Assembly: GCF_002727185.1 (NCBI RefSeq)
Contig: NZ_NIZW01000009.1
Coordinates: forward strand, 1 to 64,000
Length of the DNA stretch: 64,000 bases
Origin: Rhodopirellula bahusiensis
Lineage (GTDB): Bacteria; Planctomycetota; Planctomycetia; Pirellulales; Pirellulaceae
Direction: 5' to 3'
A model generated the notes under the pieces. That model was not told where the DNA came from. It saw only the letters and a list, made by a program, of their open reading frames with translations, and searched no databases. Position numbers and translations under genes: made by a program. Below, piece by piece: positions 59,241 through 61,704 of this stretch; positions within the stretch are counted from its first letter, which is position 1, and each line of letters starts with the position of its first letter.

Positions 59241-60722
59241 TCATTTGCCCAATGATTCGATGGTGTGTCCGGAATGGATCGCACCGCGAAGAAGGTTTGT
59301 GATTTGGGTGAGCGTTATCTTTCGATCCGCCGGGGCCGGCGCAAGCGTTGCTTCCATGATTTGGTGCAGAGCAGGCGGGACGCCGGTTGGCGGTCGAAAG
59401 AATCGTTCTTCCGAGTGGAGAGTTCGCGACATCATCTCCACCGCCGATGCACCGGACTGGGGCGGTTGCTTGAACAGATGCCAGTGGACTAAACCGCCGA
59501 TCGCGTGGAGATCGGTGGGAATGCCGATCGCACCGAAAGACGGATCGATTTGTTCCGGGGCAGCAAAACCCAAAGTGCCACCGAGAACAGACGTCGGGCC
59601 AGAATCCGAGGCTTGTGAGAATCCAAAGTCGGTGATCGTGATTCGGTCGTGCGAGTCAACGAGAACGTTGCTCGGTGTGAGATCGCCATGAACCAGTCCG
59701 GCTTGATGCACCGCCTCGAGCGTCTCGCAGATTTGCAATAACCAGCCGATGAACTGCGCTGCCGTGACGCGATCGAGCGCGTGCACTGGCCGACCGTCGA
59801 TCCATTCACTGATGACGTACGGACCACCGTGTGGAGATTCGCCGTGGGCGACGTATCGAATGATGCCGGGATGATGGATTTGCGAGGCGATGTTGATTTC
59901 GCGAAGGAACGAGTGCCGGGCAGGATCGTTTTGCCAGTACGTTTTTCGCAAGAATTTGACGGCAACGCCGCGATCGTCTGACTGCATCCTCGCGTGATAG
60001 ACCTTTCCGAAACCGCCGCTGCCAATCAACTTTCCCAGCACGAACTCGTTGTAGCCCACGCGAGGCAAGGAAGAGGACGCGGCAACGGGGCTGTTCGCGA
60101 CAGGCTCATGCCGAGATTTCCCTTCCAGCTTTTGGCGAATTCTCACGAGACGGCGGCGCACCGTCCGCTCGTCAATTCCGAGTGAGTTCGCGATGTCACG
60201 CTGCGACCGATCTGCTAGCAGGCCCTCCACAATCGCGAACAGATCACTGGAAAGTTCTGTGTTCAAGGAGCTGAGAAACGTGTCCACGTGCTCGCCCGCT
60301 TCAGATGTTTCTTCGCTGGCGAGATGTGTTGATGCTTCCTCCAGCGTCACACGGTTCTGGTTCCCACCTCGCTTGGCAGCAGAAAGCCTTTCGATCGATC
60401 GGGACATTTTCAGGCGAGCGAACGTTGCCAAGAGTCGCCAGAGCGAAACATTGCTGCTGACCTGCACGCGGCTGTGTTTTGCCGCGTCAAAGAAGCTTCC
60501 CATCGCCGACTGGACGACTTCGTCCGGATCAATGGAGGATCGGTAGCGACGGTTCAGGCGGCTGGCGACCAACGCGACCAATCGGATTGCGTAACGATCG
60601 AACAACACTTCGGCGGCTTGTTCGTTTCCAGATTTCCACTCACGCAGCAGCCATCCGTCGGGTCGATCCATGATCGACTCAAAGAGGTTCTGATTTTTTT
60701 CGCGACTGCTGTCCGGTTCCAA
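59241..60722 (-). CDS. ECF sigma factor - Ser/Thr kinase fusion protein
   Basis: One uninterrupted 493-codon frame holds two modules. Residues about 20-115 are sigma-70 region 2 (LLREWKSGNEQAAEVLFDRY, DEVVQSAMGSFFDAAK) and about 160-205 region 4 with a helix-turn-helix (DRSQRDIANSLGIDERTVRR). From about 228 a Hanks-type kinase begins: LIGSGGFGKVYHARM, GVAVKFLRK, VHGDLTPSNVL near 344 (HGD replaces HRD), ITDFGFSQAS and GTLGFAAPEQ. The catalytic Asp, the ATP Lys and DFG are present. No membrane helix is seen, so it is cytoplasmic. Start 60722 is preferred; MDRPDGW at 60671 is an alternative. A fused sigma-kinase contrasts with the usual two-gene planctomycete arrangement. Confidence 0.9.
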   Translation of the reverse strand: MEPDSSREKNQNLFESIMDRPDGWLLREWKSGNEQAAEVLFDRYAIRLVALVASRLNRRYRSSIDPDEVVQSAMGSFFDAAKHSRVQVSSNVSLWRLLATFARLKMSRSIERLSAAKRGGNQNRVTLEEASTHLASEETSEAGEHVDTFLSSLNTELSSDLFAIVEGLLADRSQRDIANSLGIDERTVRRRLVRIRQKLEGKSRHEPVANSPVAASSSLPRVGYNEFVLGKLIGSGGFGKVYHARMQSDDRGVAVKFLRKTYWQNDPARHSFLREINIASQIHHPGIIRYVAHGESPHGGPYVISEWIDGRPVHALDRVTAAQFIGWLLQICETLEAVHQAGLVHGDLTPSNVLVDSHDRITITDFGFSQASDSGPTSVLGGTLGFAAPEQIDPSFGAIGIPTDLHAIGGLVHWHLFKQPPQSGASAVEMMSRTLHSEERFFRPPTGVPPALHQIMEATLAPAPADRKITLTQITNLLRGAIHSGHTIESLGK

Positions 60723-60748
60723 CGTTGGTTTCTCACTTCCCTGGTGGC

Positions 60749-60796
60749 ATAGGCATCCTGCCTGTGATCGACATTCATGACAGGCTGGAAGCCTAT
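60749..60796. repeat. Palindromic repeat, module C
   Basis: ATAGGCATCCTGCCTGT and ACAGGCTGGAAGCCTAT are inverted arms around 14 bases. It lies between the divergent sigma-kinase fusion and ferredoxin genes, 21 bases before the ferredoxin ATG, so it overlaps both probable promoter regions. The motif ATAGGC...GCCTAT looks like another dispersed planctomycete palindrome family, by recollection only. Confidence 0.7.
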
Positions 60797-60817
60797 CCCA
60801 CTGGAGGAGACACGAAA

Positions 60818-61072
60818 ATGACGATGGTGGTTACACAACCTTGCATTGGTTGCAAAGACAAAGCGTGCTTGCCGGTTTGCCCGGTCGAATGCTTTCACGA
60901 AGACGACAGAATGGTTTACATCGACCCCGACGAGTGCATCGACTGCGGAGCCTGCGTGCCTGAATGCCCCACCGAAGCCATCTTCTACAAAGACGATGTC
61001 CCGGAACAGTGGAAGGGATTCATCGAGCTGAATGCAACGAAATCGCAAGAATGCCCGTCAGCACACGAGTGA
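60818..61072 (+). CDS. fdxA: Ferredoxin, 7Fe (FdxA) type
   Basis: The 84-residue product begins MTMVVTQPCIGCKDKACLPV with Cys at a C-x2-C-x4-C-x3-C spacing, and carries a second C-x2-C-x2-C-x3-CP set, CIDCGACVPECP, near residue 45. The short C-terminal helix is acidic and the length is typical. One cluster is 3Fe-4S or 4Fe-4S and one is 4Fe-4S. The role is electron transfer in the cytoplasm. GGAGGAGAC lies just upstream of the ATG at 60818. The gene is divergent from the sigma-kinase fusion gene. Confidence 0.9.
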   Translation: MTMVVTQPCIGCKDKACLPVCPVECFHEDDRMVYIDPDECIDCGACVPECPTEAIFYKDDVPEQWKGFIELNATKSQECPSAHE

Positions 61073-61095: not shown

Positions 61096-61704
61096 ACGTT
61101 CGCAAGACGGTAGCCGGATTCGCCAAGAATTCGGAGGCCCACAACTCGCGCCTCTGAATTCTGGCGAATCCAGCTACCAAGTTCTGTAGGCCAGGTTCCA
61201 CCTGGCACCGCGCCGATGCTTGGGAACCAAGCGAGGCGTCCAGACAACCTGCCGTGGCGAAGGCGATGTCCTCCGGCATAGCACCCGCGCCAGTTGGGAC
61301 CTGGCCTACACAACAACGGGTCCGTCACAACCAGCCACGTTCGCAAGACGGTAGCCGGATTCGCCCAGAATTCGGAGGCCCACAACTCGCGCCTCTGAAT
61401 TCTGGCGAATCCAGCTACCAAGTGCTGTAGGCCAGGTTCCACCTGGCACCGCGCCGATGCTTGGGAACCAAGCGAGGCGTCCAGACAACCTGCCGTGGCG
61501 AAGGCGATGTCCTCCGGCATAGCACCCGCGCCAGTTGGGACCTGGCCTACACAACAACGGGTCCGTCACAACCAGCCACGTTCGCAAGACGGTAGCCGGA
61601 TTCGCCCAGAATTCGGAGGCCCACAACTCGCGCCTCTGAATTCTGGCGAATCCAGCTACCAAGTTCTGTAGGCCAGGTTCCACCTGGCATCGCGCCGATG
61701 CTTG
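61096..61704. repeat. 241-bp tandem repeat, about 2.5 copies, each of modules A and B
   Basis: The unit begins at ACGTTCGCAAGACGG (61096, 61337 and 61578) and is 241 bases long in both full copies, with only a few mismatches. Each unit holds palindromic module A (61109-61178, 61350-61419, 61591-61660) and palindromic module B (61186-61310, 61427-61551; the third is truncated near 61704). The copies differ at few positions, implying recent amplification or frequent gene conversion. No gene lies inside. The array sits between a plus-strand ferredoxin and a minus-strand ADP-ribosylglycohydrolase gene. Confidence 0.95.

Follow-up and report, generated by a model that had tools for sequence, protein, structure and literature searches.

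A gene joining an ECF sigma factor to a Hanks-type kinase, and its divergent ferredoxin partner, in Rhodopirellula bahusiensis and related planctomycetes

Near one end of a 64,000-nucleotide stretch of the Rhodopirellula bahusiensis genome (contig NZ_NIZW01000009.1, positions 1 to 64,000; hereafter the window), one continuous frame seems to encode an ECF sigma factor and a Hanks-type kinase in a single polypeptide. Is this a genuine fused gene, how widely does it occur, and what might it control? We examined the frame itself, its homologues across the genus, family, class and phylum, and the genes and intergenic DNA that accompany it.

The fused gene and its two halves

The gene occupies 59,241–60,722 on the minus strand and encodes 493 amino acids from a TTG start, with no internal stop over the 493 codons and a stop-to-stop length of 529 codons. 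Pfam finds a sigma domain (Sigma70_ECF, PF07638; regions 2 and 4) at residues 25–202 (60,117–60,650, minus strand; E = 5.6e-16, 59.4 bits against a gathering score of 21.1) and a kinase domain (Pkinase, PF00069) at residues 229–474 (59,301–60,038, minus strand; E = 4.2e-35, 121.8 bits against 31.7). The linker between them, bounded by these two matches, spans residues 203–228 (60,039–60,116, minus strand). The uninterrupted frame and both domains bear out the sequence-only reading, which had described a single 493-codon frame with sigma and kinase parts. In an alignment of the window protein with 14 homologues (one of them, L014, truncated by a contig end), identity to the window protein is 51–64%. 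The TTG start is shared by the window and 13 of the 14 homologues, the remaining one (L036) having ATG one codon upstream instead, and it follows a GGAAGTGAG-like Shine-Dalgarno sequence at a near-constant distance. Note that five other loci (L107–L111) have CTG after GGAGGTGAGAAT where the window's close relatives read TTG after the Shine-Dalgarno sequence; this CTG is possibly a weak start codon, and other starts are also allowed.

The kinase half looks intact, judging by its conserved residues. The motifs GSGGFGKV, AVK256, E275, H345-G-D347, N352, D365-F-G and A388-P-E can all be read, and an alignment of 25 diverse family members shows no variation at K256, E275, H345, D347, N352, D365, F366, G367, A388, P389 or E390. 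With Gly loop, Lys, Glu, catalytic Asp, Asn, DFG and APE all present, this is by sequence a Hanks-type Ser/Thr kinase. Its catalytic loop reads HGD (residues 345–347; 59,682–59,690, minus strand) and lacks the Arg before the catalytic Asp that defines RD kinases. This non-RD motif had been pointed out at the start, and it proves to mark the entire lineage. We compared 103 rows (93 fused and 10 split forms, the interrupted copies L110, L119 and L271 being omitted), and all 103 are non-RD (HGD, HCD or HAD), as opposed to HRD in all five comparison kinases. The fused rows divide into 50 HGD, 39 HCD and 4 HAD, and the 10 split rows are all HCD; a Cys thus adjoins the catalytic Asp in 49 of the 103. 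The catalytic Lys is retained in every row.

Within the sigma half, one residue is nearly constant. Ser72 (codon at 60,507–60,509, minus strand) lies in region 2.2 at the position of the last Glu of the DxxDxxQE motif, as that motif is quoted in the relevant part of PMC13147305. Of the 103 rows, 102 have Ser at this position and one has Thr; the equivalent residue is Ser in four of five comparison sigma factors as well. Ser72 is, we infer, the best single candidate phosphosite. The acidic residues of region 2.2 are kept (DPDE in the window protein), and because they are kept a need for phosphorylation is not forced. An AlphaFold2 model built from 12 sequences (mean pLDDT 65.3, pTM 0.50) is too weak for the arrangement of sigma and kinase domains; its kinase part retrieves PknB-like structures.

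Fused and split forms across the Planctomycetia

The fusion is patchy yet widespread in the class. Within the genus it occurs in 5 of 13 genomes, R. bahusiensis included; the other eight, searched again, gave kinase matches without the sigma part, together with a relic in G006. In the family, 51 of 241 genomes match our profile at E 1e-60; in 45 the match covers both the sigma and the kinase part, and in 6 it is cut or partial. In the class, every one of 397 genomes has some kinase match under a broader profile, and 69 have a near-full-length match. Near-full-length here means a match that starts at profile position 45 or earlier and ends at 410 or later (36 and 420 for the family list), counted from match tables; one stop falls within the matched range in 2 of the 45 family genomes and 5 of the 69 class genomes. 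Thirteen of 392 genomes in a phylum sample match the profile. Such fusions had been thought uncommon. The 45 family and 69 class genomes contradict that view and indicate that the fusion is genuine rather than a sequencing error. The loci analyzed below are a subset of the family, phylum and class profile matches.

In R. bahusiensis itself, the window gene is the only fused one among the PF07638 matches examined. The genome has 26 such matches; the one on contig C13 was left out of the 24 others examined. For eight of these 24, a kinase frame lies on the same strand no more than about 150 bases away, and a ninth match (C35) also has a kinase frame nearby. Among long frames examined for further fusions in this genome, three (L213–L215) are kinases without a sigma domain, and the fourth (L216) is a sigma gene after a long open stretch.

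A search for the same architecture elsewhere, suggested by the sequence-only reading, returned fused homologues in many genomes and unfused ones at 10 loci (L316, L317, L319–L325 and L327; L315, L318, L326 and L328 stand outside this count). That reading had also reasoned that two separate genes in close relatives would speak against a real fusion; the close relatives in our 15-row alignment are all fused, and the split forms lie elsewhere. At 8 of the 10 split loci, an ATG in another frame begins 4–14 bases before the end of the sigma stop codon. In 97 fused frames, found with our own profiles and a few of which share a genome, the linker measures 3–61 amino acids (median 19). Each of the 10 split kinases has, in addition, some 150 or more N-terminal amino acids, and this region includes a conserved EEYRxRxRWGDRP-like stretch. 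A profile of this region, searched against 2981 frames, matches the 10 split kinases and, more weakly, L217, L326 and L328, and it has no match in any fused protein among these frames. Pfam returned nothing for the region in the three proteins scanned. As the split kinases carry this region and the fused proteins do not, its probable role is to bring kinase and sigma factor together when they are separate proteins.

A tree of the fused and split forms suggests that sigma and kinase parts became fused on more than one occasion. It was built from 54 of the 93 fused rows (L269 upward plus every fourth earlier row), the 10 split rows and 3 outgroup rows, and on it the fused or split state needs at least five changes, with the starred branches forcing five. 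This tree comes from a quick search with no bootstrap and does not give the direction of change; it omits the interrupted copies L110, L119 and L271 as well as L328 and L218, and a 93% similarity cut had reduced 115 rows to 111. We infer that the changes of state were repeated fusions, each with loss of a docking region.

The divergent ferredoxin gene and the element between the genes

Divergent from the fusion gene lies its conserved partner, an 84-amino-acid ferredoxin gene at 60,818–61,072 on the plus strand. By sequence the product is a 7Fe ferredoxin: over residues of about 2–75 it matches known 7Fe ferredoxins, including ferredoxin I, in phmmer searches (PDB 2v2k, 1h98, 1bc6 and others; E down to 7e-29). 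It differs from them in being an 84-residue further paralogue, and another ferredoxin occurs in all 13 genomes of the genus. Directly 3' of the gene, at 61,096–61,704, is a tandem repeat with a period of 241, 2.5 copies and 98% matches.

The association is close to constant. A divergent ferredoxin adjoins 56 of the 58 first-fetched homologous loci (L082–L135 and L138–L141), and the two lacking it (L138 and L139) both begin at contig ends. Of the loci fetched later, the 46 fused ones include 42 with the ferredoxin and the 10 split ones include 9. The one split locus without it (L320) starts where its contig does, and the four fused exceptions (L272, L290, L303 and L305) show no ferredoxin within about 1.5 kb upstream. 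Besides the ferredoxin, the largest clusters of neighbor families are antisense frames of the sigma-kinase and ferredoxin genes themselves, and genuine neighbor genes recur at no more than 13 of 54 loci. Two genomes of the genus without the fusion (G002 and G003) retain a ferredoxin 75–76% identical to that of the window, and its neighbor there, as in the window, is an ADP-ribosylglycohydrolase gene. The counterpart in G006 is missing its N-terminal part. In addition, R. bahusiensis and G006 share a relic (L137 and L136) that runs on from the middle of a ferredoxin gene into the middle of the kinase part. From the fusion-free ferredoxins and these relics, our reading is that the module was lost in part of the genus. 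Elsewhere, in G041 (L174: 1979–2617), a ferredoxin gene with 65% identity faces away from another ECF sigma gene, one that is not fused, and no kinase was seen in that stretch.

A promoter-like element points from the fusion gene toward the ferredoxin gene. It consists of TGTCCG (or TGRCCR), 16–17 bases, and then a box resembling GCATCTAC, GCATTCAC or TCACTTCC. In the window, the putative −35 box TGTCCG (60,710–60,715, plus strand) lies over codons 3–5 of the fusion gene, and 17 bases separate it from the putative −10 box TCACTTCC (60,733–60,740, plus strand), which overlaps the fusion's Shine-Dalgarno sequence on the opposite strand. Because the boxes overlap the first codons and Shine-Dalgarno sequence of the fusion gene in close relatives, conservation of the element among them is confounded, and the distant loci therefore carry the promoter argument. 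The element is found upstream of 48 of 56 linked ferredoxins (21 of 23 close, 27 of 33 distant; shuffle means 0.15–0.20), most of these loci having also served to design the pattern; at the other eight, the element as written is missing. It was found at 0 of 49 ferredoxins taken as unlinked, a set made up mostly of other ferredoxin paralogues. At loci outside the pattern design, it occurs at 22 of 42 later fused loci (shuffle mean 0.22, largest 2), being absent as written from the other 20, and at 6 of 10 later split or partial loci (shuffle mean 0.11, largest 3). We take the element to be a likely promoter for the fused sigma factor.

A strict form of the pattern occurs once in the 7.8-Mb R. 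bahusiensis genome, at the window site. The genus as a whole (13 genomes) contains 12 matches: five ferredoxin sites beside a fusion and seven elsewhere, with none in G011, in which the fusion is present. Six of the seven matches elsewhere are in genomes without an intact fusion (a control reading gave one match). We do not claim a wider regulon. We also dropped covariation between the −35 base and residues of the sigma half as evidence. Over 180 columns, the top mutual information falls at the residue after ERTVRR in region 4, with many columns nearly equal, and a tree-based test limited to three usable pairs gave no signal.

The remaining intergenic DNA holds an inverted-repeat element (60,737–60,809, plus strand) that lies between the −10 box and the ferredoxin Shine-Dalgarno sequence, is predicted to form a long hairpin and belongs to a repeat family. 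The stretch 60,733–60,830 has strong predicted folding (z = −4.8), and a 20-base arm is present 11 times in the R. bahusiensis genome when one mismatch is allowed, the window copy counted. Several relatives have different palindromes at this position.

A proposed one-protein switch, its alternatives and its setting

We propose that the gene encodes a self-contained switch, sigma factor and kinase in one, that serves the divergent ferredoxin gene specifically, and we give this reading a probability of about 0.55. The fusion probably switches on the ferredoxin gene. Its sigma half would recruit core RNA polymerase to the bipartite ECF-type promoter just upstream of the ferredoxin, and the tethered non-RD kinase would control this promoter step by phosphorylating the sigma half, with Ser72 the best candidate target. 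Phosphorylation would be coupled directly to promoter choice, as had been suggested from the sequence. Fusion would replace docking, making the N-terminal region of the split kinases superfluous in the fused protein. A natural guess at the signal is redox or iron-sulfur status. More tentatively, and with more doubt than confidence, we can picture a complete one-gene circuit, in which a sigma factor with a built-in kinase sensing the redox or iron-sulfur state serves the promoter of a single accessory 7Fe ferredoxin, having arisen by several fusions from a two-gene operon with the N-terminal region discarded each time. The Cys next to the catalytic Asp in 49 of the 103 rows would suit such sensing through the kinase.

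Other explanations account for parts of these data. The kinase half could be an inhibitor, acting as an internal anti-sigma factor that keeps hold of the sigma domain until autophosphorylation or ligand binding releases it. Covalent attachment through a short linker (3–61 residues, median 19) and the retained acidic residues of region 2.2 would suit such a role, and IutY, as presented in part of PMC8999054, offers a fused regulator that restrains its sigma factor. A purely steric inhibitor, however, would not need the conserved catalytic residues, and the model, with its mean pLDDT of 65.3 and pTM of 0.50, cannot show a docked interface; we regard this account as rather unlikely. It is unlikely, too, that the element is the promoter or operator of the fusion gene itself, with the ferredoxin working alongside the fusion (as a redox signal donor, for example) instead of being its target. 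The genes are divergent and one element could serve either, and at some distant loci the conserved fusion frame begins well downstream of the element. In close relatives, however, the element spans the TTG start and the Shine-Dalgarno sequence, and therefore a promoter in the fusion direction would start inside the gene. A distance of 16–17 bases between boxes also fits ECF promoters and suits one directed toward the ferredoxin.

We consider it improbable that the kinase targets other proteins, with the sigma domain merely positioning it at promoters or RNA polymerase. This would be compatible with a kinase intact by sequence, and the missing N-terminal region of the fused forms is consistent with a docking role. 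Yet in the ECF43 precedents, as covered in parts of PMC8999054 and PMC13147305, the kinase phosphorylates the sigma factor itself. That a sequencing or assembly error joined two genes can be practically dismissed. Split two-gene forms do exist elsewhere, but there are 97 fused frames, a few of which share a genome, and a single stop loss would not yield the fused protein because the split kinases carry the extra N-terminal region.

The switch that we propose has its closest precedent in the kinase-controlled ECF43 factors, represented in section 3.4 of PMC8999054 and in parts of PMC13147305 by EcfP/PknT of Vibrio parahaemolyticus and EcfK/PknS of Xanthomonas citri. In both cases a Hanks-type kinase governs, or would govern, an ECF sigma factor. 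In these accounts, however, the ECF43 sigma factor and kinase come from separate genes and PknS is transmembrane, whereas the window system is one polypeptide. ECF43 proteins lack the acidic residues of region 2.2 and have Thr as the target, whereas the window protein keeps DPDE and has Ser as the last residue. The window protein therefore shows neither ECF43 hallmark, that is, the lost acidic motif with Thr or the separate neighboring kinase gene, and the ferredoxin partner is a feature of the window system. Planctomycete groups with predicted kinase control (ECF59, ECF61, ECF62 and ECF217) appear in a table of PMC8999054 under phosphorylation, not under regulatory extensions. Conversely, ECF41, ECF42, ECF57 and IutY also combine a regulatory part and the sigma domains in one covalent chain, but their extensions, as far as the available descriptions go, are SnoaL-like, protein-interaction, WD40 or anti-sigma, not kinase. 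The parts consulted of seven papers (PMC8999054, PMC8103513, PMC13147305, PMC8567305, PMC8195603, PMC2754498 and PMC7406223) deal with separate sigma-kinase pairs and other fused extensions. Within the literature searched we found no description of the fusion or of its ferredoxin link, either of which may have been cataloged earlier.

Documented kinase control of ECF sigma factors, in the parts of the literature covered here, concerns separate gene pairs, whereas the type found in the window is one protein present in many genomes. With a nearly constant candidate target next to the gene, the way in which a kinase switches a sigma factor could be examined using a single purified protein and a single promoter. 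The repeated change between fused and split forms, always tied to the absence or presence of the N-terminal region, is a natural experiment on how a kinase finds its sigma factor. If true, the one-gene circuit would mean that in planctomycete kinases linked to sigma factors it is this region that docks onto the sigma factor.
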